From NCBI RefSeq assembly GCF_022095675.1, contig NZ_JAHYSG010000005.1:1-64000 (forward strand): a stretch of 64,000 nt of DNA. The letters run 5' to 3'. Below, in pieces: positions 15,420-31,776 of the stretch; position 1 is the stretch's first letter; each line of letters starts with the position of its first letter. The DNA is from Dactylosporangium sp. AC04546 (lineage in GTDB: Bacteria; Actinomycetota; Actinomycetes; Mycobacteriales; Micromonosporaceae). The translations under genes and the position numbers were made by a program. Under the pieces are notes generated by a model. It made no database searches, was not told where the DNA came from, and saw only the letters and a program-made list of their open reading frames with translations.

Positions 15420-15464
15420 GGGGTTGCTCCTGGGCGGGGGAGTAGGGTGGAACATGGACCCGGA

Positions 15465-15492
15465 TCTATAGGGGACTTTTTTCATATCGCAA
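15465..15492 (-). promoter_or_regulatory. probable chitinase promoter
   Basis: On the minus strand TTGCGA (15492-15487) and TATAGA (15470-15465) are spaced by 16 bases, a good sigma-70/HrdB-like match. The segment is locally AT-rich against a very GC-rich background. Start of transcription would be about 40 bases before the chitinase ATG. Words such as CTTTACAGTTAG just upstream may be regulator sites. Confidence 0.6.
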
Positions 15493-15537
15493 ATTCGGCT
15501 AACTGTAAAGAGTCCTTTCTTTTTTCCGGCCTGCCGT

Positions 15538-16551
15538 TCAGTGCCCCACCGAGAGCCAGAACGACGACGGACGCAGGCGCTCGCCCAGGCCCAGGCCCGC
15601 CCACAGGTCGTCGAACAGGCCACCCAGCGCCGGGTCGTCGGCGATGTACGCGTTGGGCAGCTCCACCACGTACCGCCCCCGATCGGCCAGCAGGAACGCC
15701 GCCAGCAGATACTGCTCGGAGTAGGCCCGCCAGCGCCACTCCGGCGGATAGTCGCTCGGCAGCAGGATGTCGTGGATGTGCACCAGCACGCCCGGCCGCA
15801 GCCGGGGCAGCACCTCGAAGAAGAACACCGTGACGTCCGAGCCCATGAACGCCCGGTGCGAGCCGTCGAAGAAGACGATGTCGCCGGCTTCCAGCTCGTC
15901 GAACCGGCTGAGGTCGGTGTGCTCCAGCGGTTCGCGGATCACGGTGTCGCACAGCGCGTCGATCTCGGCTCGGGGTGCCGGGTCGATCGAGGTGATCGTG
16001 GTGCGCAGCCCGTGGTCGGCGATGGCCCGGCGGGCGAACTTCGTCGAGTTGCCCGAGCCGATCTCCAGGTACCGGCGAGGATTGGTCCCCGCCAGAAACC
16101 CGGTGAGCGCCAGCGCGTCCAGCGGCGGCAGCCAGCCGTTGCGCCAGTACGGCATCGGGTCGGTCAGCTCGGCCTGCAGCGGGATCGCCCGGAAGGCGTC
16201 CAGGTGGGCGCGGAAACCGGCCAGGTGCTGGCGGTACCGCTCGCGCCCCTCGGCGAACCGGGCGGCGAGCTGCGGGTGGACCGGCCGCCCGTACCCGTAG
16301 CGGGGCTGCGGATCGCCGAGGTGGTCGACGAACAGCGGGCGGCGCAGCCCGAACGCGGACAGTACCGCACCGTGCAGGACCGGGTGGCGGTCGAGGTAGC
16401 GCACCGGCGCGCGCAGGACCGGCAGCGCGCCGAGCAGCTCCAGGCCGGACGAGGTGCTGACGGCGGCCCGGACGCGCCGCCCCCAGCGGCGGACACCGGG
16501 GCGGACACCGGGGCGGTCGGAGGACGTGGAGGACACCGGGAAGAGGGTCAC
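15538..16551 (-). CDS. class I SAM methyltransferase (Methyltransf_24-like), last gene of glycolipid-type operon
   Basis: Protein of 337 residues. The motif I region RRYLEIGSGNSTKFARRAI, the motif II acid in SIDPAPR and FFDGSHRAFMGSD mark a class I methyltransferase of the type found in sugar and surface-polysaccharide loci; the N-terminal 100 residues are basic and partly hydrophobic, so peripheral membrane binding is possible. Its GTG overlaps the upstream stop as GTGA, with AAAGGA upstream, so it is translationally coupled. In this operon it probably caps or modifies a sugar; the acceptor cannot be told. Confidence 0.78.
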   Translation of the reverse strand: MTLFPVSSTSSDRPGVRPGVRRWGRRVRAAVSTSSGLELLGALPVLRAPVRYLDRHPVLHGAVLSAFGLRRPLFVDHLGDPQPRYGYGRPVHPQLAARFAEGRERYRQHLAGFRAHLDAFRAIPLQAELTDPMPYWRNGWLPPLDALALTGFLAGTNPRRYLEIGSGNSTKFARRAIADHGLRTTITSIDPAPRAEIDALCDTVIREPLEHTDLSRFDELEAGDIVFFDGSHRAFMGSDVTVFFFEVLPRLRPGVLVHIHDILLPSDYPPEWRWRAYSEQYLLAAFLLADRGRYVVELPNAYIADDPALGGLFDDLWAGLGLGERLRPSSFWLSVGH

Positions 16552-17495
16552 GACGAAATCCTTTCGAGGGTGAGCGGGGCGGGAACCCGGGCCGGGCGGA
16601 ACACGCCCAGCGCGGCCAGGACGACCAACGTGGACACCGCGTCGACGACGGTGATGAGGATCCGGCTCAGCGCCACCACGGTGACCAGGGCCGGGCCGGT
16701 GAGCAGGGTGGCCAGGGTGAGCCCGAGCACCAGCTCGCGCACGCCGAGGCCGGACGGGAGCACCAGCGCCACCACCCCGGCGACCACCGCGAGCGCGAAG
16801 CCGCCGATGCCGACGGTGAGCGTGGTGAGTGGATCCGCGCCGAGCGCGACGGCCAGGACCGCCACATGGGTACCGCTGATGAGCCAGCCCAGCGCCATCA
16901 GGGCGGTGGCCTTGCTCAGCGCCGCCCGGCCGGGCAGCTCCAGCGTGGTGGTGCGGCGCAGCAGCCGGGCGCCGAGCGTCAACGGCGCGCGGAGCGTTCC
17001 GGGAGCCAGGACGGGCACCGCGGCGGCGGCGAGCACCGGCAGCAGCAGCCACCACAGTGGACTCACCGCCACCAGGGCGGGCAGGGCGAGCAGCCCGACC
17101 AGCAACCCGGCCACCACCGCGAGCCCCTGACTGGCCAGGAAGGCGGCGGCCAGCCGGACCGGCGGCTCCCCGAGCGACGTGGCCATGCTCGCGTGCGCCA
17201 CGGCCGGCCAGACCCCGCCGGGGATGTAGCGGGCGAGCCCGCCCACGAAGTACACCCGCAGCGCCTCGCGGGTCGGCAGCCGGGTGCCCAGGCCGGCCAG
17301 CAGGATCCGCCAGCCGAACATGCCGGGCAGGCCGCCGACACCCGCGAGGACCGCCGCGAGCAGCGCGCTGCCCAGCCCGACCGTTCGCACGCTGTCGACC
17401 AGGCCGTGCCGCGCCCGCCACAGCTGGCCGACGAGGAACAGCACGACCAGCCCGTACGCGAGGATGCGCAGCACCGCGAAGATCCGTCGTCTCAT
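16548..17495 (-). CDS. LPG-synthase/flippase-like integral membrane protein (UPF0104)
   Basis: Protein of 315 residues with about eight hydrophobic helices. The signatures GGLARYIPGGVWPAVAHASMA and the late LPSGLGVRELVLGL match the lysylphosphatidylglycerol-synthetase membrane-domain family (AglD/UPF0104), whose stand-alone members often sit in glycolipid loci and are thought to move or modify lipid-linked sugars. It has no aminoacyl-transfer domain. It overlaps both neighbours by ATGA/GTGA, so it belongs to the operon. A role in flipping the lipid-linked product is inference from context. Confidence 0.75.
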   Translation of the reverse strand: MRRRIFAVLRILAYGLVVLFLVGQLWRARHGLVDSVRTVGLGSALLAAVLAGVGGLPGMFGWRILLAGLGTRLPTREALRVYFVGGLARYIPGGVWPAVAHASMATSLGEPPVRLAAAFLASQGLAVVAGLLVGLLALPALVAVSPLWWLLLPVLAAAAVPVLAPGTLRAPLTLGARLLRRTTTLELPGRAALSKATALMALGWLISGTHVAVLAVALGADPLTTLTVGIGGFALAVVAGVVALVLPSGLGVRELVLGLTLATLLTGPALVTVVALSRILITVVDAVSTLVVLAALGVFRPARVPAPLTLERISS

Positions 17496-18559
17496 CGTGC
17501 CCTCCGCACGGTCAGCTCGATGCGCTGCAGGCTGTGGTCCGACATGCCGCGCGGGTCGACGAACGCGTACCGCCGCACCGCCACCGCGTCGGACGTGAAC
17601 GCCCAGTCGAGGCGCCACAGGTCGACCGGCCAGTACGAGCGCCACGACGCCGGATACAGGGATCGATCGCCGCTCGCCGCGTCGTGCAGCGAGCCGGCCA
17701 GCCACCGGATGTCGCCCATCGCCGGGCTGGTGTTGAAGTCCCCGGCGACGAGGATCGGGTTGCGGTTGCCCCGCACGTCGTTCTCCAGGGAGGTGTACTG
17801 CCGCTGCCGCGCCGCGTCGCGCAGGCGCAGCTGCCGGTAGAAGCCGGCCGACAGCGGGCTGACCAGGTCCAGCTGGACCGGCATGTGCACGTTGTAGACC
17901 GACAGGGTTCCGCCGCCCGCCGTCACGTCCACGCGCAGCGACTTGACCTGCTCGTACACCTGTCGCCAGCTGCTGCCGGGGGCCGGTTCGGCGGGCAGCG
18001 CGACGACCCGCCGTACCGGTAGGCGGGTGAGCGTCAGCAGCTCGCCGCGCTCGATCGCGGTGTAGCCGGGGAAGTCGCCGGGGTGCAGGCCGTTCTCCGC
18101 GTACTCCTGCAGCAGGTACACGTCGGCGTCCTGGGCGCGCAGGAAGGCGAGGAACCGCGCCGGGTCGTCCCAGTCGTCCCACACCTCCGTGTTCCACGCC
18201 ACGACCCTGAGGTGGGTGCCGGCCACGTCCCCCGGCGGTGGCAGCAGCGCCGCCGGGTTGAAGCCCGCCTGTGCCCCGCCGACCGCAAGGCCGGCCAGCG
18301 CGACCACCAGCGGCCGGCGGCCCAGCCGGAGCAGGGCGGTGCCGGCGGTGAGCCCGGCCGGTACCACGGCGAAGGCCAGTGGTGGCAGCAGACCCGGCAC
18401 GAGCCACAACCACCAGCGACCGCTCAGCGCGACGTTGAGCCCGGCGAAGACCAACCAGGCGACGCCGGCCGCCACGACGACGCGCCGTCCGATGCGGAAG
18501 ATGCGGGCCCGCACCGGCCGGTCGGCCACGGTAGGCGTCGAGGTGATGGTCGCGGTCAT
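17492..18559 (-). CDS. membrane-anchored endonuclease/exonuclease/phosphatase-fold protein (copy 2)
   Basis: Protein of 355 residues: three hydrophobic segments (about 27-100), then an EEP domain with the metal and catalytic motifs RVVAWNTE, LLQEY, NVHMPVQ, VAGDFNTSP and MSDHSLQRIEL. With membrane anchors this fold is more often a phosphodiesterase on lipid or sugar-phosphate substrates than a nuclease. It is paralogous to the protein at 20552-21616 (same anchor pattern, GRWWLWL(V/L)P, GELLTL(T/S)R, PAMGD), so one gene-pair duplication formed both. ATGA overlaps on both sides place it in the operon. Role suggested: dephosphorylation or hydrolysis of a polyprenyl-linked intermediate. Confidence 0.78.
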   Translation of the reverse strand: MTATITSTPTVADRPVRARIFRIGRRVVVAAGVAWLVFAGLNVALSGRWWLWLVPGLLPPLAFAVVPAGLTAGTALLRLGRRPLVVALAGLAVGGAQAGFNPAALLPPPGDVAGTHLRVVAWNTEVWDDWDDPARFLAFLRAQDADVYLLQEYAENGLHPGDFPGYTAIERGELLTLTRLPVRRVVALPAEPAPGSSWRQVYEQVKSLRVDVTAGGGTLSVYNVHMPVQLDLVSPLSAGFYRQLRLRDAARQRQYTSLENDVRGNRNPILVAGDFNTSPAMGDIRWLAGSLHDAASGDRSLYPASWRSYWPVDLWRLDWAFTSDAVAVRRYAFVDPRGMSDHSLQRIELTVRRAR

Positions 18560-19560
18560 GCCGCGAGCCCGGTGTACAGGCGGCGGAACCGCGCGGAGCC
18601 GGCCCACTGCGTGAGACCGACGGCGATCCCGGCCGCCGTCGTGAGGTTCACCAGGTAGTGCAGCGCCACCACGGCGACGGCGAAGCCTGGTCCCCGATGG
18701 CGCAGGGCCGCTCGGAAGAACCGGCGCTCGCCGAGGCACCAGGCGGCGAGGAACGCCACCGGGACCAGCGCGGCGATCGGGCCGAGCAGCGCGGGCGCCG
18801 GTGCCGTGGCCAGGGCGAGCGCCGCGGCGAGGCAGCCGCCGGACTGCTGGCTGGTCGCCACCTGAGCGACCCGGCTGCGGTCGAGGAAGAACGGGATGTG
18901 CAGCCGGGTGCGGTGGAACACCTTGCGCAGCACCACCCGCAGCGTCGGATCGTTGTCGTGCTTGCCGCGCACCGTCGTGCTGAGCAGCATCCGGTGCCGC
19001 GCACCGAGCCGCCGGCCGAAGTCGGCGCCCTCGGTCTCGCGCAGGTGCGGCAGGAATCCGCCCAGCTCGGCGTAGACGGTCGCCGGTATGGCCATGATGG
19101 CGGTCGGCACGAAGTCGTGCAGCTCGCCGGCCGCCGCCTCCAGCCAGTAGTACTGGTGGAAGTTGCGGTACCGCTCGACCACACCGTTGACGATGAGCGG
19201 CTCCGGCTCGTAGGTGCCGGCGACCACGCCGACGGTGGGGTCGGCCCGCAGCGCGGCGACCGCGTTGGCCACCGCGTCCGGGTGCATGGCCACGTCCGAG
19301 TCGACGAAGACCAGGATCTCGCCCGACGCCTCGGCCGCGCCCAGGTTGCGGGCGACCGCGACCCCGCCGTTGACGCCGGTGGACACGACCCGCGCGCCGA
19401 GGGACCGCGCAACCGCGACCGAGTCGTCGGTACTGCAGTCGTCGACGACCAGGATCTCCAGCGGCTGGTAGGTCTGCCGTTGCGCGGCCTCCACGCACAG
19501 GCCGATCGTGGCGCCGTAGTTGTAGTTCGGGATGATCACGGAGACCAGTGGAGTGTTCAT
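18556..19560 (-). CDS. GT2 glycosyltransferase with C-terminal membrane helices
   Basis: Protein of 334 residues. A GT-A fold is clear at residues 1-210: VSVIIPNYNYG, VVDDCSTDDS, ARNLGAAEASGE, the DXD-like FVDSDVAM and the acid in ETEGADFGRRL. Two or three hydrophobic segments close the protein (about 245-325), as in polyprenyl-phosphate-dependent GT2 enzymes. One of three GT2 paralogues in this operon. It probably uses a nucleotide sugar and a lipid acceptor on the cytoplasmic face. ATGA overlaps both neighbours. Confidence 0.85.
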   Translation of the reverse strand: MNTPLVSVIIPNYNYGATIGLCVEAAQRQTYQPLEILVVDDCSTDDSVAVARSLGARVVSTGVNGGVAVARNLGAAEASGEILVFVDSDVAMHPDAVANAVAALRADPTVGVVAGTYEPEPLIVNGVVERYRNFHQYYWLEAAAGELHDFVPTAIMAIPATVYAELGGFLPHLRETEGADFGRRLGARHRMLLSTTVRGKHDNDPTLRVVLRKVFHRTRLHIPFFLDRSRVAQVATSQQSGGCLAAALALATAPAPALLGPIAALVPVAFLAAWCLGERRFFRAALRHRGPGFAVAVVALHYLVNLTTAAGIAVGLTQWAGSARFRRLYTGLAA

Positions 19561-20552
19561 GACGTGGTACCGATCGGGCAGCGGCGGCTCGGGCCGAAGG
19601 TCGGGTCGGTGAGGACGCGCAGCAGGCCGCGGGCGCAGCCGGCCAGCAGCGCGATGTGCAGGAGCAGGTTGACGCCGGTGAAGTACGCCAGGTAGGCGAG
19701 ACCCTTGCGGCGCACGACGAACCGGGCCAGCGGCGGGTCGGCCACCGCGAAGGCGGCCAGCAGCGCGCCGGGCACCGCCAGCAGGGCCGGGTCGAGCAGG
19801 CCCAGCGGCACCGTCGCCAGCATGAGCGCCACGACGGCCACGCCGGTGGTGCGGTTGACGGCCAGCCCGCCGCGGCGCATCCGGTTGCGGGCCGAGAAGG
19901 GCATGAGCTGTGCCCGCCGGTACTGCTCGTGCAGCGCGTCCGGCAGCCGGTCCACCTCGTCGTGGTAGCCGACCATCGTGTCGGTGAGCCGGATCTGGTA
20001 GCGGGTGCGGAGCCGTTCGCTGTACTCGTCGTCCTCCGCGCTGCGCAACCGCTCGTCGAACCCGCCGATCTCGTCGAGGACTCGTCGCGGCATCGCGGCC
20101 AGCGCGAACACCGCGGTCTCGGTCCGCCCGACCTGCCGGGTCAGCGCGAAGTGCAGGTGCAGCACCCGGTGGCGCTCCACCGGGCCGTCGTCGACGAGCG
20201 GCTCCGGCCCGTACACACCGAAGACGCAGCCGCAGTCCGGCTCCGCGGCCAGGATCCGCACGGCCTGCTCGATCGCGTCCGGGGCCAGGGCGACGTCGGA
20301 GTCCACGAAGAAGACGACGTCGCCGCGGCTGGCCGCCACCCCGGTGTTGCGGGCGGCCGACACACCCCGGTTGACCGCGTGGCGCACCACCGTCGCCCCG
20401 GCCGCTTCGGCGATCCGGACCGAGTCGTCGGTGCTGCGGTCGTCGACGACGATCACCTCGACCGGTTGGAGGGTCTGCTGCTGCACCGAGCGCAGACACG
20501 CGCCCAGGGTCTTGCCGTAGTTGTAGTTGGGGATGACGACCGAGACGTTCAT
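19557..20552 (-). CDS. GT2 glycosyltransferase with C-terminal membrane helices
   Basis: Protein of 331 residues, paralogue of the previous entry. GT2 motifs: VSVVIPNYNYGKTLG, VVDDRSTDDS, AARNTGVAASRGD, FVDSDVAL and the acidic SAEDDEYSERL. Membrane segments lie at about 235-275 and 295-320. The ATG at 20552 overlaps the preceding stop by one base (TGATG), and an AAGGA site lies upstream. Its substrate probably differs from its paralogues because the loop around residues 100-150 is divergent. Acts in the same predicted lipid-linked glycan pathway. Confidence 0.85.
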   Translation of the reverse strand: MNVSVVIPNYNYGKTLGACLRSVQQQTLQPVEVIVVDDRSTDDSVRIAEAAGATVVRHAVNRGVSAARNTGVAASRGDVVFFVDSDVALAPDAIEQAVRILAAEPDCGCVFGVYGPEPLVDDGPVERHRVLHLHFALTRQVGRTETAVFALAAMPRRVLDEIGGFDERLRSAEDDEYSERLRTRYQIRLTDTMVGYHDEVDRLPDALHEQYRRAQLMPFSARNRMRRGGLAVNRTTGVAVVALMLATVPLGLLDPALLAVPGALLAAFAVADPPLARFVVRRKGLAYLAYFTGVNLLLHIALLAGCARGLLRVLTDPTFGPSRRCPIGTTS

Positions 20553-21616
20553 CAAGACTGTCCTTTCAGGACGATCCGCACCTGCTGCGCCCGATGGTCG
20601 GAGAGCCCGTCCGTGGCCACCAGCCGGTAGTCGCGGGCGAGCAGCCCGGCCGTGGTGAAGGTCCAGTCGACCCGCCACAGCGGCAGGCCGGCCGGCCACG
20701 ACCCCGGGTACAGTGCGGTGTTGGCGTCGTGCAGGGTCGCGCGCAGCGCATCGAGGTCACCCATCGCCGGGCTGGTGTTGAAGTCCCCGGCGACGATCGC
20801 GGGACGGCTGTTGGCGGCGAGGTCGGACCGCAGCCCGGCGAGCTGGCGGCGCCGCAGCTCGTCGCGCTCCTGGATCAGGCTGAAGAACCGGCGGCTCACC
20901 GCGAGGTCGATCTGGACCGGCAGGTGCACGTTGTAGGCCGAGATGACGTGCCCGTCGACGTCGAGATCGCTGCGCAGCACCTTGGCCGCGGCGAACACCT
21001 GGTCGAAGCCGGCCGTGCGGCCGGCCAGGTCGCGGTCCGGGCCGACCGGCGGCCGGGCCACGATCGGGAACCGGCTGAGCGTCAGCAGCTCGCCGCGGCT
21101 GGCGATCGAGTAGCCGGGGAACGCGGCCCGCAGCGCCGCCTCGTCGTCCACCCGCCGGGCGCCGTCCAGCCCGGCCGTCTCGTCCCAGTGCAGGTACTCC
21201 TGCAGCAGGTAGACGTCGGCGTGCTGGGCCCGCAGGAACGCGTAGAGCCGGTCCCGCCCGACGTGCTGGCCCCAGTACTCGGTGTTCCACGCGAACACCC
21301 GCAGCTCCGGGCCTACGCCGGAGACTCCACCGTGGACGGTGAGGCCGTTGTACGGCCAGCCGAGCACACCGGCCGTGACGGTTCCCGCCAGGACCAGCCA
21401 GGTGGCGTTGGCCGGCACCGGGCGGCCGGACAGGCGCGCGGCCGGCAGCGCGGCGAGCAGCATGACCGGGATGACCAGGAACGTCAGCGGCGGCATCAGG
21501 TCGGGCAGCAGCCAGAGCCACCAGCGCCCGGTGAGCAGCCACTGCAGGCCCACGAAGACCAGCCAGGCGCCGGTCGCGCCGACCAGGACCTGGGTGCCCC
21601 GGCACCACCTGCTCAT
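20552..21616 (-). CDS. membrane-anchored endonuclease/exonuclease/phosphatase-fold protein (copy 1)
   Basis: Protein of 354 residues with three N-terminal hydrophobic segments (about 10-90) and an EEP domain carrying RVFAWNTEY, LLQEYLHW, NVHLPVQ, VAGDFNTSPAMGD and LSDHRAQQ. All metal/catalytic positions of the fold (Asn, Glu, Asp-x-Asn, terminal Asp-His) are present, so it should be active. It follows a GT2 gene exactly as copy 2 does, which supports duplication of a GT2-EEP unit. Possible substrates are polyprenyl phosphates, phosphoglycolipids or sugar phosphates. Confidence 0.78.
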   Translation of the reverse strand: MSRWCRGTQVLVGATGAWLVFVGLQWLLTGRWWLWLLPDLMPPLTFLVIPVMLLAALPAARLSGRPVPANATWLVLAGTVTAGVLGWPYNGLTVHGGVSGVGPELRVFAWNTEYWGQHVGRDRLYAFLRAQHADVYLLQEYLHWDETAGLDGARRVDDEAALRAAFPGYSIASRGELLTLSRFPIVARPPVGPDRDLAGRTAGFDQVFAAAKVLRSDLDVDGHVISAYNVHLPVQIDLAVSRRFFSLIQERDELRRRQLAGLRSDLAANSRPAIVAGDFNTSPAMGDLDALRATLHDANTALYPGSWPAGLPLWRVDWTFTTAGLLARDYRLVATDGLSDHRAQQVRIVLKGQS

Positions 21617-22641
21617 GCTGGCGACAGGCGGATCGGGCGCGGCTGCGGAGCGAGGTCGTACAGGCCGCGGAACTCCCGCGACGCGAGCCACTGCAGCGCG
21701 CCGAAGCCCGCGCCGGCCACGATGGCCACGCTCTGCAGCACCTGCACGCCGGTGAAGAACAGGCCGAAGCCGGTTCCCCGGCGGCGGAACACGAACCGGT
21801 ACATCTCGGCGTCGCACCCGATCGACACGGCGAGCAGCGCGGCCGGGACCAGGGCGAAGAGCGGACTCGCCAGGAGCATCGGAAGGCTCAGGACCGCGGC
21901 GGTGGCGGCGACGCTGCCGAAGATGCGGGCCGAGGTCTCGAAGCCTTTGGCGAACCTGCGCCGCCTGGTGTAGAGCGGTATCCGCAGCCGGCTGCGGCGG
22001 AACAGCTTGCGCAGCAACGGCCACAGCCGCGGCTCGTCGCGGTGCCGGCCGGACAGCGCCGAGGTGAGCAGCACCTGGTAGCGGGTGGACAGCCGCTGGC
22101 CGTACTCGACCTCTTCGGTCTCGCGCAGCCGCGCGTCGAACGGGCCCATCTCGGCGAAGACCTCGGCCCGCATCGCGCAGATCGCGCTGAACAGGAACGA
22201 CACCACGCCCTCGGAGCTGATCCGCCAGTAGTGCGCCTGGAGGCACCGGCACTCCTGCAGCAGGCTGTCGCGCTTGAGCGGGACGTCGTCGAGCATGCCG
22301 CAGACCGCGCCGGCCTCGGGCCGGGCGTCCAGCAGCGCCGTGGCCCGCTCGATCACGGTCGGCGCCAGTTCGACGTCCGAGTCGAGGAAGAGCAGGACGT
22401 CGCCGGACGCGAGCTGCGCGCCGAGGTTGCGGGCCGCCGCCGGTCCGCTGTTGACGGGGGTACTGACGACCCGGACGCCGGCGGCCGTCGCGATCGCCAC
22501 GGAGCCGTCGGTACTGCAGTCGTCGACGAACAGGATCTCCAGTGCCGGCACGGTCTGCGCGCGGACGGCCGCGATGGTGCGATCGAGCGAGTCGGCGTGG
22601 TTGTAGTTGGGCATGATGACCGAGACCCGGGGTACGGACAC
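21613..22641 (-). CDS. GT2 glycosyltransferase with C-terminal membrane helices
   Basis: Protein of 342 residues, third GT2 paralogue. Motifs: VSVIMPNYNHADSLD, FVDDCSTDGS, ARNLGAQLASGD, FLDSDVEL, and the acidic ETEEVEYGQRL. Hydrophobic segments at about 245-330 suggest two or three helices. It starts with GTG at 22641 behind AAGGAG, 30 bases after the UbiA stop, and overlaps the next EEP gene by ATGA. The three GT2 enzymes would add successive residues to a lipid carrier, or act on separate acceptors. Confidence 0.85.
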   Translation of the reverse strand: MSVPRVSVIMPNYNHADSLDRTIAAVRAQTVPALEILFVDDCSTDGSVAIATAAGVRVVSTPVNSGPAAARNLGAQLASGDVLLFLDSDVELAPTVIERATALLDARPEAGAVCGMLDDVPLKRDSLLQECRCLQAHYWRISSEGVVSFLFSAICAMRAEVFAEMGPFDARLRETEEVEYGQRLSTRYQVLLTSALSGRHRDEPRLWPLLRKLFRRSRLRIPLYTRRRRFAKGFETSARIFGSVAATAAVLSLPMLLASPLFALVPAALLAVSIGCDAEMYRFVFRRRGTGFGLFFTGVQVLQSVAIVAGAGFGALQWLASREFRGLYDLAPQPRPIRLSPA

Positions 22642-22671
22642 GGTGCCTTCTCCTTGGTCGGTGGCGGCTGG

Positions 22672-23622
22672 TCAGTTGATGAGGGACTGGAGCCGGTGGG
22701 CGAGCGCCGGGTCGCGCGAGAGCACCAGCGCGGTGACGAACAGCACGCCCCATACCAGGCCGGTGCCGACGATCGCGCGGTCGCGCAGCAGGACGAGGAC
22801 GGGGTCGCCGACGCCACGCACCAGGACCGCCTGGATGTACCGGGCGAGCGCGAAGAGGGCCAGCGGCACCGAGGCCAGCATCGCCGGCTCCGCGAACGCG
22901 CCGAGTTGCGCGTCGCCCCGCAGGTACAGCAGGAACGCCACGGCGGTGAGGACCGCGGTCAGCTGGATCAGGTGGTCGGTGAGTTCGACGGTGTAGCCGC
23001 GCAGGGCGGGGCGGTGGGCGCTGCCGCCGACCGACAGCTCCTGACGCCGCTTGCCGAGGACCAGCAGCAGGCACAGCGAGAAGACCGCCACGAGCAGCCA
23101 GGTGGCCACGGGCGCACCGACGGTGAGGTAGCCCTCCAGCACCCGCAGGACGAACCCGGCGGCGACGCAGCCGGCATCCACCAGCGGTATGTGCTTGAGC
23201 ACCCGGCAGTACAGGACGTTGAGCACCAGATAGGCCAGGATCGGGCCGGGCGGCACGTCCGGGACGGCGATGAGCAGCAGGGCGAGCAGCCCCAGCACGC
23301 CGGTCGCGACCGCCACGGCGACGGCGCCGGAGACCCGGCCGGACGCGATGGGCCGCAGCCGCTTCACCGGGTGCAGCCGGTCGCGGCGACGGTCGGCGAG
23401 GTCGTTGCCGAAGTACACGGCGATCGAGGCGAGGGTGAAGGCCACCGTGGCCAGCAGGACGTGGCCGGCGCTGGACGCCGAGACCGTCGGCACGGCGAGC
23501 AGGGCCGCCGGGACCACCAGGACGTTCTTGACCCAGTGCGCCGGCCGGGCGACCCGGAGGAGATCGAGCAGCAGCGGGGTGGGCACGGCGGTGGATGCGG
23601 GAGTCGTTTCCAGAGTCGTCAT
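22672..23622 (-). CDS. UbiA prenyltransferase, DPPR-synthase-like
   Basis: Protein of 316 residues with about eight or nine hydrophobic helices. The first aspartate-rich motif is NDLADRRRDRLHPVKRLRPI, which with RPAHWVKN matches decaprenyl-phosphate phosphoribosyltransferase (mycobacterial Rv3806c type) rather than menaquinone or haem O enzymes. That family moves 5-phosphoribose from PRPP to polyprenyl phosphate. If so it makes the lipid-linked pentose that the rest of the operon remodels. A fairly weak GGACGGGA site precedes the ATG. Pairing with an epimerase parallels the DPPR to decaprenyl-phospho-arabinose route, but the DprE1 oxidase partner is absent here. Confidence 0.82.
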   Translation of the reverse strand: MTTLETTPASTAVPTPLLLDLLRVARPAHWVKNVLVVPAALLAVPTVSASSAGHVLLATVAFTLASIAVYFGNDLADRRRDRLHPVKRLRPIASGRVSGAVAVAVATGVLGLLALLLIAVPDVPPGPILAYLVLNVLYCRVLKHIPLVDAGCVAAGFVLRVLEGYLTVGAPVATWLLVAVFSLCLLLVLGKRRQELSVGGSAHRPALRGYTVELTDHLIQLTAVLTAVAFLLYLRGDAQLGAFAEPAMLASVPLALFALARYIQAVLVRGVGDPVLVLLRDRAIVGTGLVWGVLFVTALVLSRDPALAHRLQSLIN

Positions 23623-23634
23623 CGCGGTCCCGTC

Positions 23635-24666
23635 CTAGAAGAACACCTTGGCGGCGGAGAGAGCCCCTTGCTTCCACGGCTCCCGGCTGGTGACCCCGCT
23701 CCCGGACGGCGAGCCGCGCTGCTCGCGCCACCAGTCGAACGTGGCCAGGATCGTGTCGCGGTTGGACCGGGTGGGCGCGTAGCCGAGCCGGTTCCGGGCC
23801 TTGGCGATGCTCACGTAGGAGTCGGCGAGGAGCTTGTGCAGCAGCCGCCCGTACACCGGGGACAGCCCGACGCGCTGCAGCAGCGAGAGGACCGCCACGG
23901 CCGGCCGGGCCGGCACGCCGACGACGCGCCGGCCGTGTCCGGCGGCGTCGAGCACCGCCTGGAAGTCCTCGCGGATCGTGCCGAACTCGGCGGCGGCGAT
24001 GTTGTAGGTGTCGCTCGCGACGTCCGGCGGTGCCGCGAGGGCGGTCTGGATCGCGGTGACCAGGTCCTCGACGGCCAGCATCTGCACCCGGACGTCGCCG
24101 CGGCCGAGGACCGGGAAGTTGCGGCCCTCGTCGGCCCACTCGAACAGCATCGCGAACAGCCCCATCCGGCCCGGCCCGAGGAACGTCTTGGGCCGCAGGG
24201 TGGTGAGGCACACCCCGTCGGCGCGCGCCTTGTCCGCCACGACCTCGGCGTCGGCCTTGGCCTCGCTGTAGACGTCGACCGGCTCGCGCGGGTGCTCCTC
24301 GGTGGTGGGCACGACCTTCGGCAGGCCGTAGACCGCGGTCGAGCTGATCTGCACCACGCGCGGCACGCCGGCCTCCCCAGCCGCGTCGAGCACGCTGCCG
24401 GTACCGTCGACGATCACCGATCGGATGACGTCGGCCGGGTAGCTGGGCAGCGCCGAGGCGCAGTGCACGACCGCGGTCGCGCCGGTGAACGCCCGCCGCA
24501 TGGCGGCGGTGTCGCGGATGTCGGCCTCGACGTGCTCCAGCCGGGTGTGCGGTGGCACGGCGCTGCCGCGCCGGTCGACCCCCCGGACCCGCTCACCCGC
24601 CGCGAGCAGCCGCTCGACCAGGTGCGTGCCGAGCATGCCGGCCGCGCCGGTCACGACAACCGTCAT
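23635..24666 (-). CDS. NAD-dependent epimerase/dehydratase (extended SDR)
   Basis: Protein of 343 residues. Rossmann motif VVVTGAAGMLGTHLVERL (TGxxGxxG) at the N terminus, then VHCASALP, the Ser of VQISSTAVYG and the catalytic pair YSEAKADAE (YxxxK). This is an extended SDR acting on a nucleotide sugar or other activated sugar. It is separated from the UbiA gene by 12 bases and overlaps the aminotransferase by ATGA. With those neighbours it may oxidise or epimerise a sugar before amination. Exact reaction cannot be read from sequence. Confidence 0.85.
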   Translation of the reverse strand: MTVVVTGAAGMLGTHLVERLLAAGERVRGVDRRGSAVPPHTRLEHVEADIRDTAAMRRAFTGATAVVHCASALPSYPADVIRSVIVDGTGSVLDAAGEAGVPRVVQISSTAVYGLPKVVPTTEEHPREPVDVYSEAKADAEVVADKARADGVCLTTLRPKTFLGPGRMGLFAMLFEWADEGRNFPVLGRGDVRVQMLAVEDLVTAIQTALAAPPDVASDTYNIAAAEFGTIREDFQAVLDAAGHGRRVVGVPARPAVAVLSLLQRVGLSPVYGRLLHKLLADSYVSIAKARNRLGYAPTRSNRDTILATFDWWREQRGSPSGSGVTSREPWKQGALSAAKVFF

Positions 24667-26084
24667 CGCCCAGTCACCTTCTCGCGGACGAACGAGGTCA
24701 GCAGCGCGGGCAGGCCGCGGCTGAGCGTGGCGTCGAGGCTGTCCAGGAAGTGCTCCACGTCGTCGTCGGAGACGACCAGGCTGGGAGCGACCATGAGCGG
24801 GTTCTCGACGTTCGGGCTGTAGTAGGTGACGATCCCGTGCTCGCGGAACAGGTGGGAGATCACCGACAGCGTGATGAGCTTGGTCTTGAACCGCGGGTCG
24901 TGCGCGAATCCGGGCACCAGCTTGCCGGCCAGGGCCAGGATCCGCGGGCCGCCGTCGAGGAAGACGCCCCACAGTGCCCCCGTCCCCTTGACGTCGCGGA
25001 CGACGTCCGGGTGTGCCTTGGCGATGCGATGCAGTTCGGGGCCGAGCGCCGCTTCCAGCCGTCGGGCGCGGGCCGGGTAGTCGTCCTCGACCACGACGTT
25101 GACCGCCTCGATGGCGGTGGCGGTCTCCTCGCCGAACCCGTAGTACGTGGTGCTGTGCAGGATCACGTCGGCCAGCCGGTCGTAGGCCTTGCGGAACACC
25201 GGCTCCCGGGCGGTGTAGCCGGAGATCGACGCCTTGCCGCCGCCGAGCGACTTCGAGTACGTCAGGATGTCCGGTACCAGGCCGGCGTGCCGCATGAAGT
25301 AGAACAGGCTGCCGGTCTTGCCCCAGCCGGTGTAGATCTCGTCGAAGATCAGAATGATGTCGTTGCGGTCGCAGAGCGCGCGCACGGCCCGCAGGTCGGC
25401 CTCGGACCAGTGCCGCATGCTGGAGGCGCTGAACGGCTCCAGCATGATCGCGTAGACGTCGCAGCCGCCGTCCGGGCGCCGGGCCGTCTCGACCGCCGCG
25501 GTCAGCCCGGCCAGATCGCCGTACGGGTAGACGCCGATGTTCGGCAGGCCCGGGAAGGCGAACGCGTTCTCGGTCGAACCGGTCAGGCTGCCCGCGCCCA
25601 GGGTCTTGCCGTGGAAGCTGATGTCGGCCCGCAGGATCGTGCCGCGGCTGCCGCCGTGGTACTTGTACGCCATCTTGATGGCGCCCTCGTTCGCCTCGGC
25701 GCCGGAGTTGGGGAAGTACGAGATGTTCAGGTCGCCGGGCAGCAGCGCGGCCACGTTGTGGCTCAACGCGGCCAGGTAGGGCGAGAAGAACGCCTTGTGG
25801 ACCTCCATCCGGCCCTGCTCGCCGTAGCGCTGCCGGGCCCGCAGGATGCGGGGGTGGTTGTGGCCGTGGTTGAGCACGCCGACGCCGCCGGTGAAGTCGA
25901 GCACCCGCCGGCCGTCGCGCAGCCAGATCGCCGCGCCCTCGGCCCGTTCGACCAGCTCCCGGCCGAAGCCGAACGTGGTCATCAACGAGACCTGACTGCG
26001 GCTGACATAGCGGCGGTAGAGCTCGTGCACCTCTTTGGTGGACAGCTGCTCCACCCGGTCCAGGCTGATCATGTCTTGTTGCAT
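24663..26084 (-). CDS. class III PLP-dependent aminotransferase
   Basis: Protein of 473 residues. Cofactor-binding features: SGAEANEGAIKMA, the Asp of IFDEIYTGWGKTG, the PLP lysine in YSKSLGGGKA, and HSTTYYGFGEE. This is the acetylornithine/4-aminobutyrate fold, longer than metabolic forms by about 50 residues and carrying a distinctive N-terminal helix. The ATG at 26084 is chosen because GAGAGG lies at the right distance; a TTG 16 codons upstream has none. In this operon it may aminate a keto-sugar or supply an amine-bearing headgroup. It overlaps the epimerase gene. Confidence 0.85.
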   Translation of the reverse strand: MQQDMISLDRVEQLSTKEVHELYRRYVSRSQVSLMTTFGFGRELVERAEGAAIWLRDGRRVLDFTGGVGVLNHGHNHPRILRARQRYGEQGRMEVHKAFFSPYLAALSHNVAALLPGDLNISYFPNSGAEANEGAIKMAYKYHGGSRGTILRADISFHGKTLGAGSLTGSTENAFAFPGLPNIGVYPYGDLAGLTAAVETARRPDGGCDVYAIMLEPFSASSMRHWSEADLRAVRALCDRNDIILIFDEIYTGWGKTGSLFYFMRHAGLVPDILTYSKSLGGGKASISGYTAREPVFRKAYDRLADVILHSTTYYGFGEETATAIEAVNVVVEDDYPARARRLEAALGPELHRIAKAHPDVVRDVKGTGALWGVFLDGGPRILALAGKLVPGFAHDPRFKTKLITLSVISHLFREHGIVTYYSPNVENPLMVAPSLVVSDDDVEHFLDSLDATLSRGLPALLTSFVREKVTGR

Positions 26085-26144
26085 GTGCCGCCTCTCTTCG
26101 AAGTACCGGTCGGAAAGCTGGCGGCAGTCCAACCTGACGACCTA

Positions 26145-26699
26145 TCAGGTGGGCATTCGGTGGCTATTCGGTGACCCTGCGTAGTCGGTCGCCAGGTCCA
26201 CGACGATGAGGCGGCACCCGTGCACCCGGCGGACCAGGGCGGCGAGCAGCACGGCCCGCGGCTCGGCGGCGGTGAGCAGGACGTCGGCGGCGGCCCGCAG
26301 CGGGGCGGGCAGGCACCGTTCGCCGAGACTCAGCACGACCGCGCCCGCCGCGAGCCAGCCGGCCCGGACCGGTGCCGCGTGCACGGCGTCGACCAGGAGC
26401 ACGAGATCGGCGCCGCGCACCACGTCACGGGCGTGCCGGCCGACGCACAGCTGGACGCCGCGGCGGCGCAGCGGCTCGACCAGCCGGTCCCACAGCTCGT
26501 CGGCGGCCCGGTCGTCGGGGTCGAAGAGCGCGACCTGGCTGACGGTGGGCAGCAGCTCGGGCAGCAGTGCGAGGTATTCGCCGGCGGGTGCACCCGCGCC
26601 GAGCAGGCCGACGGTGAGCACTCCGCGATTGACCAGCGCGCCGGCGACCGTCAGCCCCAGGCGGGCGGTGCGTTGCTCGGGTGCGTCCGGATGAACCAC
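26145..26699 (-). CDS. short ornithine-cyclodeaminase-like NAD-binding protein
   Basis: Protein of 184 residues. RTARLGLTVAGALVNRG followed by VGLLGAGAPAGEYLALL corresponds to the middle of ornithine cyclodeaminase/mu-crystallin proteins, and VVRGADLVLLVDAV to their ADI-V-T segment. The N-terminal substrate lobe and C-terminal return are missing, and normal family length is about 320. It may be a degenerate accessory protein or a redox partner of the aminotransferase 60 bases downstream. The GTG at 26699 is the only start after the upstream stop; no good ribosome site is seen. First gene of the eleven-gene operon, whose promoter should be just upstream. Confidence 0.55.
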   Translation of the reverse strand: MVHPDAPEQRTARLGLTVAGALVNRGVLTVGLLGAGAPAGEYLALLPELLPTVSQVALFDPDDRAADELWDRLVEPLRRRGVQLCVGRHARDVVRGADLVLLVDAVHAAPVRAGWLAAGAVVLSLGERCLPAPLRAAADVLLTAAEPRAVLLAALVRRVHGCRLIVVDLATDYAGSPNSHRMPT

Positions 26700-26908: not shown

Positions 26909-27063
26909 GTGACTATCGTCGTGCTCGATGACACCGAACTCGACGACGCTTCGTGCGGGACGTGACTGAGATCCTGACCGCGTTCTGCGCTTGCCTGTAT
27001 GGCCGTCGGTCCGCTGCGCGCAAGGCCAAGGCTGCGATGCGCACTGCCGAGGTGACGGCATGA
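26909..27063 (+). pseudogene. frameshifted C-terminal scrap of IS607-type serine recombinase (tnpA)
   Basis: From 26909 one frame reads VTIVVLDDTELDDA; after a net loss of one base near 26950 a second frame reads VRDVTEILTAFCACLYGRRSA to a TGA at 27061-27063. Joined, these match the tail of IS607-family recombinases (VDD..VRDMTEVLTS.CARLYGRR). The catalytic serine domain is absent, so this is a dead fragment. Its stop overlaps the tnpB start as ATGA, which explains why tnpB has little leader of its own. Confidence 0.75.
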
Positions 27064-28283: not shown

Positions 28284-28420
28284 CAACTTCATCGTCGGCC
28301 CGTAGTTCCGGGAAGACGCAAAACGCCTTGTTGGAGGGCATGTAAGACCCCGGCGCGAGCCGAGGCTGAGCCCAGTGAAGCAGGCAGAGAGTCCCCGGGT
28401 TCTCAGAACGGCAGCCCGTT
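28200..28420 (+). ncRNA. probable omega RNA (reRNA) region of tnpB
   Basis: By analogy with known TnpB elements, the guide RNA scaffold spans the tnpB 3' end and the 126 bases to the element's end, and its guide is the first chromosomal bases after that end. Support here is positional: the non-coding tail contains GTGAAGCAGG and terminal stem GTTCT/AGAAC. The guide would start near 28410 (GGCAGCCCGTTC...), at the 3' end of the SARP gene. Exact ends cannot be fixed from one sequence. Confidence 0.4.
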
Positions 28421-31400
28421 CATGCCGGCGGGGTCAGCTCGCTGATCCGTTGCCGGAGGCCGCGAACCTCCGCGGTGTCGTCGTCACGATCGACGTCGCC
28501 CAGCAGGGCTCCCGCGCTGACCGCGGCACGCATGGCGCCGTGCGTGTCGCCGAGGCGCAACCGCAGTTCCCCCAGCACGACCAGCGCGTTGACCTGCTGC
28601 ACGGTCGCTCCGACCGCACCGAACGTCCGCGCCGCGGCGGTGAGCCACTCGCCGGCCCGTGCCGGTTCGTCCCGCTCAATGTCCAGCATGCCGAGCGCCT
28701 GCCGGGCGTGCGCCTCCACCAGCCGGTCCCCGAGCCCCTCGGCCAGCTGCAGCACCTGCGACAAGGCGGTCTCCGCCGCCCCGTGCCGCCCCTCGCGGTG
28801 GCGGACCCGGCCGAGGCCCAGCAGCGCGTACGCCTCGCCGAGCCGATCGCCGTGGTCCCGGGTCAGCCGCAGGACCTGATGGAACGCCTCCGCGCCACGA
28901 TCCAGCTCGTCGCGGCGCAGGTAGACCTCGCCGAGCCGGAAGAGGACCTGCCCCTCGACCCGGCGGCTGCCGGCGATCTGGGTGATCGCCAGTGCGTCGT
29001 CGAGGATCTTCTGCGCCTGGTTGGCGTCGCCCGCGTCCAGCCGCAGCGCGGCCAGGCTGGACAGCACGTGCGCCACCGCGATCTGGTCGCCGGCCTCACG
29101 CAGGATCGGCAGTGCCTGCTCGTACCCGCGGCGGGCCAGGTCCGGCCGTCCGGCGATCCGGTCGAGGAAGGCGAGGTTGCGCAGGACCAGTCCCCGCCCG
29201 TGGTGGTCGTCGCAGGCGGTGAAGCCGTCGAGGGCCTGGCGCAGCCGGTCGCGCGCGTCGGCGTGGCGCTGTTCGACGATGTGCAGCGCACCGAGCGAGT
29301 ACTGCATGGCGGCGATGCCCCGCCGGTTGTTCAGCTGACGGACGAGTGCGAGCGCCAGCTCGGCCGATTCCCGCCAGTCCACCAGGTAGCTGCGCGCCTC
29401 GAACAGCGTGACCAGCGTCAGCGCGAGGTCCCAGGCCAGCTCGTCCCAGCGGTTGCGCACCGCCTGGCGCAGTGCGGCCGTGAGGGCCTGCCGCTCGGCC
29501 TCCAGCCAGCTGAGCGGCTGCTCCAGCAGGGCGGCGGTCGCGCTCTTCGGCAGCGCCCAGCGGGGCTCGGTGCCGTGCAGGACGGTGTACTGCCCGCCGT
29601 ACTCACGGCGGTGCGCCTCCTCGGCCAGGTACAGCCAGCCGGCGAGGGCCCGCCGGACCGCGGCGGCCCGCTGGTCGTCCGGCTCCTCGGACTGGGCCCG
29701 CTCCCGCGCGAACACCCGCACCAGGTCGAGCAGCCGGAACCGGACCGGCCCGTCGGGCGTCTCGGCGAGCACCGCCAGCAGGTGCGCCCCGACCAGGTCG
29801 TCGACCAGGTCCTCGGCGTCGTCCAGGGCCACGTCGAGCAGTGCGGCGGCGGCCCACGAGCCGAACTCGGGCGCGTCGAGGCAGGCCAGCAGCCGCAGCA
29901 GCCGCTGGGCGTCGGGGCCGAGGCCGGAGTAGCTCACCGCGATGCTGGCCCGTACCCCGAGCGCACCGTGCTCCAGCTCGTCGAGCCGGCGGGTCTCGTC
30001 GCGCATCCGGCCGATCAGCCGGCTGGGCTTCCAGTGCGGGCGGGAGGCGAGCCTGGCCCCGGCGATCCGCAGGGCGAGCGGCAGCCCGCCGCAGAGCAGG
30101 GCCAGCTCGGTCAGCGCCGGGTCGTCGCGGCCGGCCCGGGCTGCCCCGACCACCGCCGCGAGCAGGTCGACCGACGGCTCGGGCGGCAGCACGTCGAGCG
30201 ACACGTGCTCGGCGCCGGGCAGCGCGGTGAGCCGATGACGGCTGGTCACGATGACGGCAGCCGGTTCGTTGCCGGGTAGCAGCGGGAGCACCTGGGTTTC
30301 GTTGACGGCGCTGTCGAGCAGGATGAGCATCCGCCGGTCCGAGATCAGGTCGCGGTAGACCTCGCCGAGGGCGTCGACGCCACCGGGTATGGCCAGGCCG
30401 TTGACGCCGAGCGCGCGCAGGAACCGGCCGAGGATCTCCACCGGCTGGACGGGCCAGGTGCCGTCGGACAGGTTGGCGTACAGCGTGCCGTCGGAGAATG
30501 CGGCGCGCAGGCTGTGCGCGACGTGCAGTGCGAGGGCGGACTTGCCGACCCCGCCGGGGCCGGAGATGGCGACGATCGCCGGTTGCCGGGTCGCGCTGCG
30601 GCCGGTCGCGCCGGTGACCGCCGAGGTGACGCGGGCCACCTCGGCGGCGCGCCCGGTGAAGTCCGCGGTGTCCAGCGGCAGCAGGTTCGGCGGTACCGGC
30701 CGGGACCGTGCCGCCCTCGGCGAGTCGTCGGCCATCGGCACCGGTCGGGGCCGTGCCGGAGTCGGCGGATTCCCGGCCGCCGGCACCTCGGCCCGTTCAC
30801 GTCCCTCCTGGGCCCCGGCGAGCACCAGCTGTTCGATGCGCCGCAGCTCCGCCCCGGGTTCGAGGCCGAGCTCGTCGACCAGGACCGTACGGGCCTGCCG
30901 GTACACGTCCAGCGCTTTGGCTCGTCGGCCGCTGCGGTGCAGCGCGGTCATCAGCGCGCCGTAGAACCACTCGTGCAGCGGGTGCTGGAGGATGAGCTCG
31001 CCGAGCTCCCCGACCAGCTCGGCGTGCCGGCCGATCTGCAGCTCGACCTCGATGCGCCGTTCCAGCACGGCGAGGCGCCGCTCTTCGAGGTGCAGGGCGC
31101 TGGCCTCCAGGATCGGGCCGGTCAGCCCGGCGAGCGGCGGACCGCGCCACAGCTCCAGCGCGGAGCGGAACACTCCGGCCGCCTCGTGCAACGCACCGTC
31201 GGCGACCAGCCTCGTCGCCTGCGCCGCCCGCTCCTCGAACTGCCGCGCATCGAGCCGCGCACCGGTGAGCATCAGCGCGTAGCCGGGCGGGCGGGTTTCG
31301 ATGACCACCAGTGGGCCGGCCGGCGCCGCGGCGGCGAACACCCGCCGGAGGGTGGAGACGCAGATCTGGACCTGCGAGCGCGCGGTGGCCGGCGGGTGCT

Positions 31401-31554
31401 CGCCCCAGAGCACCTCGATCAACCGGTCGGTCGGGACCATCCGGCCCGCCTCGAGGCACAACACGGCCAGCACCGAGTGGGTCCGGGGCCCGCCGAGCTG
31501 GAGCGACCGGCCGTCCACCGAGACTTCGACCGGCCCGAGGATGCCGATGTCCAT
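28420..31554 (-). CDS. SARP-type regulator with NB-ARC ATPase and TPR repeats (AfsR/DnrI class)
   Basis: Protein of 1044 residues. Residues 1-95 are an OmpR-like winged helix (MDIGILGPVEVSVDG, PRTHSVLAVLCLEAGRMV), 98-243 the bacterial transcriptional activation domain, about 320-600 an NB-ARC ATPase with P-loop GPGGVGKS and the kinase-2 LILLD, and about 640-1040 a run of TPR helices. This is the AfsR architecture: an ATP-dependent activator of promoters with 11-bp repeats, often for secondary metabolism. The ATG at 31554 has GGAG upstream. No obvious biosynthetic cluster is adjacent, so its targets may be elsewhere or include the glycolipid operon beyond the TnpB element. Confidence 0.9.
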   Translation of the reverse strand: MDIGILGPVEVSVDGRSLQLGGPRTHSVLAVLCLEAGRMVPTDRLIEVLWGEHPPATARSQVQICVSTLRRVFAAAAPAGPLVVIETRPPGYALMLTGARLDARQFEERAAQATRLVADGALHEAAGVFRSALELWRGPPLAGLTGPILEASALHLEERRLAVLERRIEVELQIGRHAELVGELGELILQHPLHEWFYGALMTALHRSGRRAKALDVYRQARTVLVDELGLEPGAELRRIEQLVLAGAQEGRERAEVPAAGNPPTPARPRPVPMADDSPRAARSRPVPPNLLPLDTADFTGRAAEVARVTSAVTGATGRSATRQPAIVAISGPGGVGKSALALHVAHSLRAAFSDGTLYANLSDGTWPVQPVEILGRFLRALGVNGLAIPGGVDALGEVYRDLISDRRMLILLDSAVNETQVLPLLPGNEPAAVIVTSRHRLTALPGAEHVSLDVLPPEPSVDLLAAVVGAARAGRDDPALTELALLCGGLPLALRIAGARLASRPHWKPSRLIGRMRDETRRLDELEHGALGVRASIAVSYSGLGPDAQRLLRLLACLDAPEFGSWAAAALLDVALDDAEDLVDDLVGAHLLAVLAETPDGPVRFRLLDLVRVFARERAQSEEPDDQRAAAVRRALAGWLYLAEEAHRREYGGQYTVLHGTEPRWALPKSATAALLEQPLSWLEAERQALTAALRQAVRNRWDELAWDLALTLVTLFEARSYLVDWRESAELALALVRQLNNRRGIAAMQYSLGALHIVEQRHADARDRLRQALDGFTACDDHHGRGLVLRNLAFLDRIAGRPDLARRGYEQALPILREAGDQIAVAHVLSSLAALRLDAGDANQAQKILDDALAITQIAGSRRVEGQVLFRLGEVYLRRDELDRGAEAFHQVLRLTRDHGDRLGEAYALLGLGRVRHREGRHGAAETALSQVLQLAEGLGDRLVEAHARQALGMLDIERDEPARAGEWLTAAARTFGAVGATVQQVNALVVLGELRLRLGDTHGAMRAAVSAGALLGDVDRDDDTAEVRGLRQRISELTPPA

Positions 31555-31776
31555 GCCGCTCCGCTCTCCAGCCGCCTTCTCCGGCCGCGGCGACGAGGAC
31601 AGAGAGATACACGACGGTGAATGGAGCGTAGCAGCGGACATGATCCCTTGGCCATGTGGAGTAATCGGCCACGGCCACCCCAGTCGGGCGGAACCGGTCA
31701 ACACCGCCCGGCCTCGCCGCCGTCGGCGGCGAGGCCGGTGCGCCCGGAGCATCGGGTCAGCGGCTGGAACGAGCAG

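Follow-up and report, generated by a model that had tools for sequence, protein, structure and literature searches.

A recurrent actinomycete gene cluster predicted to make a polyprenyl-phosphate-linked aminopentose

Pentoses carried on lipids are known as ribose, xylose and arabinose donors (PMC11127046). In the mycobacterial arabinan-donor pathway, which leads from decaprenylphosphoryl-5-phosphoribose (DPPR) to decaprenylphosphoryl arabinose (DPA), the UbiA-fold protein Rv3806c acts as the phosphoribosyl pyrophosphate (PRPP):polyprenyl-phosphate phosphoribosyltransferase (PMC10994848). Kelly et al. described pentofuranose systems that combine a polyprenyl-phosphate phosphoribosyltransferase (PPPRS) carrying a phosphatase domain with a MATE flippase and a GT136 enzyme; other PPPRS rely on stand-alone phosphatases from different families, and the short-chain dehydrogenase/reductase (SDR) ORF13 of Citrobacter converts ribose to xylose on the lipid (undP-ribose) (PMC11127046). 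Here we analyze an operon of Dactylosporangium sp. AC04546 in which a UbiA-family gene stands beside an SDR gene and a class III aminotransferase gene, located at 15538-26699 of a stretch of 64,000 nucleotides (the window). We propose that the operon may make a polyprenyl-phosphate-linked aminopentose and use or export it, and we give this reading about an even chance of being right. It draws on the contact residues of UbiA, with a paralogue control, and its fold, on recurrence of the gene module, on a mutual exclusion between the aminotransferase and a second SDR, and on a sister aminotransferase context that repeats the combination of lipid-sugar synthase, oxidase and aminotransferase.

The window carries 11 consecutive open reading frames (ORFs) on the minus strand, and both the unbroken run and, with the corrections given below, the gene families that a first-pass annotation had read there were confirmed. 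In order of transcription, and by Pfam, they encode an ornithine cyclodeaminase (OCD)-like fragment, a class III aminotransferase (AT), an extended SDR (EPI), UbiA, a GT2 glycosyltransferase (GT2a), an endonuclease/exonuclease/phosphatase-family protein (EEP1), two further GT2 proteins (GT2b and GT2c), EEP2, an LPG_synthase_TM-like membrane protein (LPGTM) and a Methyltransf_24 protein (MT). Most junctions had been described as overlapping by 1-4 bases, which holds for 7 of the 10 (4 bases in six cases, a single base in one); the remaining three have gaps of 60 (OCD-AT), 12 (SDR-UbiA) and 30 bases (UbiA-GT2a). D. sucinum and D. aurantiacum conserve all 11 genes in the same order, and ratios of nonsynonymous to synonymous substitution rates (dN/dS) between the window and these two relatives are 0.12-0.68. 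By gene order and dN/dS, retention of the operon goes beyond chance.

UbiA (22672..23622; this and all other operon genes are on the minus strand) is a polyprenyl-phosphate phosphoribosyltransferase-like protein of 316 amino acids with a single Pfam domain (UbiA, 58 bits). In a phmmer search against PDB sequences at E 1 or better it matched two entries, 8j8j and 8j8k, both decaprenyl-phosphate phosphoribosyltransferase. Gao et al. reported the residues of Rv3806c that contact PRPP and decaprenyl phosphate, including K28 and K191, which bind the lipid phosphate (K28 also the 5'-phosphate), and the presence of Phe at the Y157 position in some mycobacteria (PMC10994848). Of 13 such contact residues, 10 are identical in the window UbiA (exceptions Q135N, Y157F and K208P), compared with 4, 5, 5, 5 and 7 in five UbiA paralogues that the genome also encodes, one of which, L087, has an uncertain reading frame. 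The equivalents of K28 and K191 are present in the window protein and in none of the five paralogues. An alignment of 50 close relatives shows F157 and P205 to be invariant and N135 almost so, and because of this conservation we regard the differences at Q135, Y157 and K208 as marks of a subfamily. The AlphaFold model (predicted local distance difference test (pLDDT) score 92) has 8j8j as its top Foldseek match in the PDB (TM 0.78/0.84, 29% identity). Homology and active site thus make it a well-supported prediction that UbiA is a PRPP-using enzyme of the DPPR-synthase kind. If UbiA were instead an aromatic (quinone- or haem-type) prenyltransferase, the cluster could yield a prenylated glycoside natural product under the control of a SARP (Streptomyces antibiotic regulatory protein)-type regulator. 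Some relatives do carry the database name "4-hydroxybenzoate polyprenyltransferase", and SARP-type regulators occur near 42 of the 52 loci described below, but the two lysines that set the window protein apart from its paralogues and the PRPP enzyme 8j8j as closest structure make this alternative very improbable. A quinone or haem precursor as the substrate, which the first-pass annotation had named as an outcome that would overturn its reading, was rejected on these contact-residue and fold comparisons.

The same annotation had called for a synteny search, and the AT-SDR-UbiA module does recur, in Micromonosporaceae, in Streptomyces-type genomes and in Nonomuraea. At E 1e-30 or better, UbiA was found in 46 of 150 sampled Micromonosporaceae genomes, including 3 of 7 from the genus of the window, and in 43 of these 46 genomes it shares a locus with EPI (the exceptions are L064, L065 and L101). 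Around the UbiA matches the same families recur in varying order. We scanned 57 loci, counting a gene as present if tblastn detected it no more than ~10 kb from UbiA; family labels were assigned by eye and then Pfam-checked on one member each. Five loci lack the UbiA-SDR pair: L064, L065 and L101 have UbiA only, L102 (covering 13.9 kb of a 29.6-kb contig) has a second SDR, EEP, GT2 and LPGTM, and L103 is a flanking piece with none. Our main set is the 52 loci with both UbiA and EPI, 50 from Micromonosporaceae and two from a Streptomyces-type genus. It leaves out the window itself, L071-L073, whose genomes are already represented by L031 and L032, two loci from other phyla that have UbiA alone (L033 and L034), and L104-L125, which were added later. 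Within this set EPI adjoins UbiA in 49 loci, and AT adjoins EPI on the same strand in all 43 AT-bearing loci. EEP is present in 48 loci, GT2 in 50 and LPGTM in 44, followed by GT4 (21), aldo/keto reductase (18), polysaccharide deacetylase (18) and GT87 (10).

Searches with AT led to the same association. At E 1e-130 or better, AT was found in 3 of 396 genomes of a phylum-wide sample, with UbiA nearby in each. One Streptomyces-type genus has AT in 31 of 246 sampled genomes, of which 19 form a higher-scoring and 12 a lower-scoring group. Ten of the 19 higher-scoring loci were examined: EPI is present in all ten and UbiA in nine (one contig ends), with other genes between EPI and UbiA in three (L119, L121 and L122). 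Nonomuraea gerenzanensis has the full module set. Viral contigs scanned for AT gave 35 pattern matches, none confirmed, and a search of a plasmid collection gave two records, neither with gene annotation. One locus, L050, holds two AT-UbiA pairs in a single 20-kb stretch, one of them without a detected SDR between.

Seven EPI-bearing clusters of the first sample lack AT, and exactly those seven carry a different, classical short-chain dehydrogenase that we named SDR17. Across the 52 loci, 43 have AT only, nine have SDR17 only (L053, L055-L057, L060, L062, L067, L088 and L089), and none has both or neither, counts that do not represent independent events, the loci being related by descent. Thirteen of the loci were added after the exclusion idea had formed, and all fit it: 11 have AT and no SDR17, and two have SDR17 and no AT. 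L088 and L089 were selected for a second SDR near UbiA, so that only the absence of AT is a test there. The exclusion operates per cluster and not per genome, since genomes G114 and G061 each hold both kinds. In the UbiA tree, well-supported branches force at least two changes between AT and SDR17, with two SDR17 rows nested within the AT group with good support, and the best EPI tree also needs two changes. Among SDR17 matches in the 150 genomes, nine of the ten best (>560 bits) have a UbiA no more than ~10 kb away, and the remaining one (G094) adjoins EEP, GT2 and LPGTM genes; matches at 518 bits or lower lie in places without a tie to these clusters. From this pattern we infer that the product of EPI is an intermediate completed by either AT or SDR17. 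A ring ketone would fit such a swap, amination giving an amino sugar and reduction an epimer; an aldehyde at C5 would fit less well, because its reduction creates no new stereocentre.

AT (24663..26084; start ATG at 26084, in an open frame extending to 26132) matches Aminotran_3 (PF00202, 214 bits), and its residues K278, D248 and E249 are invariant in 13 aligned sequences; they correspond to the pyridoxal phosphate (PLP) lysine and the cofactor motif of the class III family. EPI (23635..24666; Epimerase PF01370, 133 bits) has the TGxxGxxG and YxxxK motifs, with T6, G7, G10, G13, Y133 and K137 invariant in 11 sequences. No hydrophobic or transmembrane (TM) segment was detected in EPI, AT or MT. 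EPI may be the oxidase that forms a keto sugar, and a keto sugar is suggested as the substrate of AT by its two genomic contexts, the module described above and a second one in Streptomyces-type genomes and Embleya.

This second context comprises 13 loci (L105-L117), namely the 12 lower-scoring AT loci and one from Embleya (L105), none with EPI, UbiA or EEP at E 1e-8. Their aminotransferases form a single clade of the AT tree, sister to the operon AT and 62-65% identical to it. A flavin amine-oxidase-like protein and a GMC oxidoreductase lie beside AT in 13 of 13 loci, and a GT2 lies there in 12 (the exception is L117). The L105 GT2, which is below NCBIfam cut-offs, matches the structures of GtrB-type sll0501 (5ekp, 194 bits), ArnC (115 bits) and dolichol-phosphate-mannose synthase (76 bits), and the other eleven GT2s of this context are 50-67% identical to it. 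Both contexts probably pair a lipid-phosphate-sugar synthase with an oxidoreductase and AT, and the second, where AT is not tied to UbiA, favours a role for AT in the amination of lipid-linked sugars generally. The (amino)pentose product proposed in the first-pass annotation has therefore gained support, since the AT/SDR swap and the second context make an amino sugar likely. Some members of the sister cluster (L105, 4825-15888) also carry a DegT aminotransferase, a ROK protein and an acetyltransferase, presumably Eis-like from its domain set.

The two EEP proteins, EEP1 (20552..21616; Exo_endo_phos PF03372, 62.3 bits) and EEP2 (17492..18559; 50.6 bits), are 43% identical, and the EEP1 model (pLDDT 93) has three TM helices followed by the EEP domain. 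Nine positions (N, E, Y, H, D, N, D, D, H), catalytic in this family, are the same in 52 of 52 aligned sequences, EEP2 included. The closest PDB structures to EEP1 are the Bacteroides EEP protein 3g6s, neutral sphingomyelinase, Tdp2 and nucleases, with the mannosyl-6-phosphatase 4c1r at rank 29. Of the 19 protein clusters that recur in at least six loci of the first sample, Pfam, run on one member each, names EEP as the sole phosphatase-type family. Because EEP is the only such recurrent family, occurs in 48 of 52 loci and shares its fold with 4c1r, we read it as a possible remover of the 5-phosphate. Counts of Lys and Arg, a rule-of-thumb method, predict for 42 of 52 sequences that the N-terminus is inside and the EEP domain faces the exterior. 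Since the domain appears to be outside, either the sugar would keep its 5-phosphate until flipped or EEP would cleave the lipid phosphodiester. A variant, otherwise compatible with a lipid-linked aminopentose, is that the EEP proteins are not 5-phosphatases at all but sphingomyelinase-like phosphodiesterases that free a finished oligosaccharide from the lipid outside the cell. The charge-derived topology and the sphingomyelinases among the closest folds speak for it, yet no other family found in six or more loci would be left to remove the 5-phosphate; we regard the variant as doubtful, though a serious contender. The description of the pair as two dedicated membrane phosphatases therefore stands in part: the nine conserved residues agree with it, but with the domain predicted outside, the two proteins are not obviously a cytoplasmic phosphatase.

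LPGTM (16548..17495) is a polytopic membrane protein of the LPG_synthase_TM/UPF0104 kind (PF03706, 26-28 bits) with eight hydrophobic segments. Its assignment to UPF0104 in the first-pass annotation is borne out by its relatives, 14 of 15 aligned proteins matching PF03706 at E 0.01, and not by its own match (26.2 bits, cut-off 33.4). A PDB profile search with LPGTM gave no matches; we consider it a candidate flippase. An 800-amino-acid metagenome protein, P0066, joins a UPF0104-like membrane part (LPGTM) to AT and hints at a functional link between them, but we set it aside as one metagenome cluster of two sequences and maybe an assembly or gene-calling join. The glycosyltransferases are GT2a (21613..22641; PF00535, 110.7 bits; C-terminal hydrophobic segments at 256-274 and 292-310), GT2b (19557..20552; 115.7 bits; 39-41% identical to GT2a and GT2c) and GT2c (18556..19560; 104.7 bits).

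Several observations weigh against a lipid-linked aminopentose as the product. Three of the 13 contact residues of UbiA differ, consistently through the 50 close relatives, and the protein scores 187.7 bits against the DPPR-synthase model NCBIfam NF008977, under the cut-off of 234. The earlier assignment to the DPPR-synthase kind is thus upheld by contact residues and fold and not by this model, which is why we call the protein PPPRS-like and not decaprenyl-phosphate phosphoribosyltransferase. EEP was not detected in 4 of the 52 loci, and LPGTM was not detected in 8 at E 1e-12, 6 of which were recovered by a looser search. The UbiA tree drew a long-branch warning for the five-row SDR17 group and two distant rows, possibly falsely joined, and a single origin of the swap is compatible with the supported branches of the EPI tree. 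The operon has no GT-C enzyme, its glycosyltransferases being GT2, though characterised pentofuranose systems use GT-C. With the EEP domain apparently extracytoplasmic and the SDR and AT devoid of TM segments, the side and order of dephosphorylation are ambiguous. The AT clade also occurs without SDR and UbiA, and AT itself is nearest by homology to putrescine-aminotransferase types, with acetylornithine-type enzymes and PigE also near. This last point bears on a different assignment of the genes, in which UbiA would make a plain lipid-linked pentose while SDR and AT make a separate amino block (a nucleotide amino sugar, a polyamine or an amino lipid) for attachment by the GT2s. A shared operon alone does not show a shared substrate, and SDR and UbiA are not neighbours in the three Streptomyces-type loci noted above. 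On the other side, SDR adjoins UbiA in nearly all of the main set, including most loci without AT, and the sister AT clade too adjoins a GT2 resembling polyprenyl-phosphate-sugar synthases. On balance we judge a separate amino block to be unlikely, but far from negligible.

For the lipid-linked aminopentose, the following order of steps can be proposed. UbiA would transfer 5-phosphoribose from PRPP to polyprenyl phosphate, the step best grounded in homology and active site. The SDR may then oxidise the lipid-linked pentose at a ring hydroxyl (C2 or C3), giving a ketone, a step for which a single SDR is plausible because of the precedent of ORF13 of Citrobacter (PMC11127046). The class III aminotransferase would convert this ketone to an amine, and in the sister clusters without AT the second SDR would reduce it to an epimer, as DprE1/DprE2 do for arabinose. 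The UPF0104-like LPGTM might flip the lipid-linked sugar, the membrane EEP enzymes could perhaps remove the 5-phosphate or cut the lipid phosphodiester outside, and the GT2s, with NDP-sugars or lipid-linked sugars as possible donors, and methyltransferase may elaborate the sugar into a glycolipid, an oligosaccharide or a glycan decoration. Aminated in this way, a lipid-linked pentose would be a donor of a new kind and would explain a cluster common in Micromonosporaceae (UbiA with SDR in 43 of 150 sampled genomes). The sister clusters with AT and with a second SDR amount to a natural experiment, with predicted products that differ by nitrogen. More tentatively, and with rather less than even confidence, we suggest that polyprenyl-phosphate-aminopentofuranoses are an undescribed class of actinomycete donors, in whose synthesis an SDR oxidase and a class III aminotransferase act directly on the lipid-bound sugar, with a sister branch that acts on polyprenyl-phosphate-hexoses with flavin oxidases. 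If true, aminating a sugar while polyprenyl monophosphate carries it would amount to a general and so far overlooked way of making amino-sugar glycans or antibiotics.

The outermost genes of the operon belong to a different layer. The OCD-like fragment (26145..26699; 184 amino acids) covers the Rossmann part only, matching OCD_Mu_crystall (PF02423) at 27.1 bits over positions 112-228 of the 314-position profile, so that the OCD-like label holds for this piece alone; its dN/dS is 0.68 and 0.50 against D. sucinum and D. aurantiacum, and the gene is kept in both. MT (15538..16551; PF13578, 49.3 bits), a presumed tailoring gene, has dN/dS values of 0.15 and 0.22 in the same comparisons. Each of the two occurs in only 2 of the 52 other loci with UbiA and EPI, and both are here confined to Dactylosporangium. 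They are Dactylosporangium additions outside the cluster core, and the view of all 11 genes as one pathway is accordingly narrowed to the recurrent AT-SDR-UbiA module and its companions.

Upstream of the operon lies a gene for a SARP-type regulator with BTAD, NB-ARC and TPR domains (28420..31752, minus strand; Pfam), the likely cluster regulator. A SARP-type gene precedes the operon in the window, D. sucinum and D. aurantiacum, at a distance of ~190-200 bases in the two relatives and 1720 bases in the window, where an IS605-type TnpB gene (OrfB_IS605, Cas12f1-like TNB domain; 26991-28283, plus strand) lies between the two. The count of 42 of 52 loci with some SARP-type regulator nearby rests on two regulator labels, each Pfam-checked on one member. 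The window holds a second gene for a SARP-kind BTAD/AAA regulator (42224-45685, minus strand), a GH19 chitinase gene with a ricin-type lectin domain directly downstream of the operon (14112-15623, minus strand) and, at 551-1936 (plus strand), a gene for a protein kinase domain fused to the cellulose-binding domain CBM_2.

No described homologous cluster or product, which the first-pass annotation had listed as a possible refutation, was found in our searches of an open-access library. The gsf and wps exopolysaccharide clusters of Actinoplanes missouriensis come from the same bacterial family and likewise have GT2s and methyltransferases (PMC13390465); the main text of that report does not contain the words prenyltransferase, epimerase, decaprenyl or endonuclease, and the aminotransferases it describes belong to the DegT type, for which reasons we rejected them as the same system. 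Closer is the sister AT cluster (L105-L117), which shares the AT family, a GT2 of the lipid-sugar-synthase kind (in 12 of 13) and oxidoreductases, and has a GtrB/ArnC-like GT2 and flavin/GMC oxidoreductases where the operon has UbiA and SDR.

With the mycobacterial DPPR-DPA pathway the operon shares the UbiA fold and 10 of the 13 Rv3806c contact residues, and it differs in having SDR and AT in place of DprE1/DprE2, and EEP in place of Rv3807c. An arabinan-type pathway, turning lipid-linked ribose into its epimer arabinose for use in a cell-wall glycan, would account for the resemblance of UbiA to Rv3806c and for the two SDRs of the clusters without AT, DprE1/DprE2 being two enzymes as well. 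It would leave AT with no place, however, and the genome offers neither an Emb-type protein (no match to PF04602 for EmbA/B/C, with a positive control in C. glutamicum) nor a DprE1, its two ALO-domain proteins scoring 71.5 and 40.8 against a cut-off of 500. We therefore consider arabinose as the product improbable and rejected an arabinogalactan-type pathway, in agreement with the first-pass annotation, which had excluded arabinogalactan synthesis because DprE1 was missing.

The three-component pentofuranose systems of Kelly et al. share with the operon a PPPRS and, as an idea, a single SDR acting on a lipid-linked pentose (PMC11127046). By Pfam, the operon has no HAD phosphatase family, either among its genes or fused to UbiA, and no MATE-type flippase, the PF03706-like protein being its only such membrane protein; a GT87 gene lies near 10 of the 52 loci. 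As it is without a HAD domain, a MATE protein and a GT-C protein, we do not class it as a three-component system, and compared with those systems it adds an aminotransferase and several GT2s. On gene content it would work like a relative of the systems of Kelly et al. (PMC11127046) with an added amination branch, and the cluster, if it acts as proposed, would form a so far undescribed offshoot of the route by which mycobacterial cell walls obtain arabinose.

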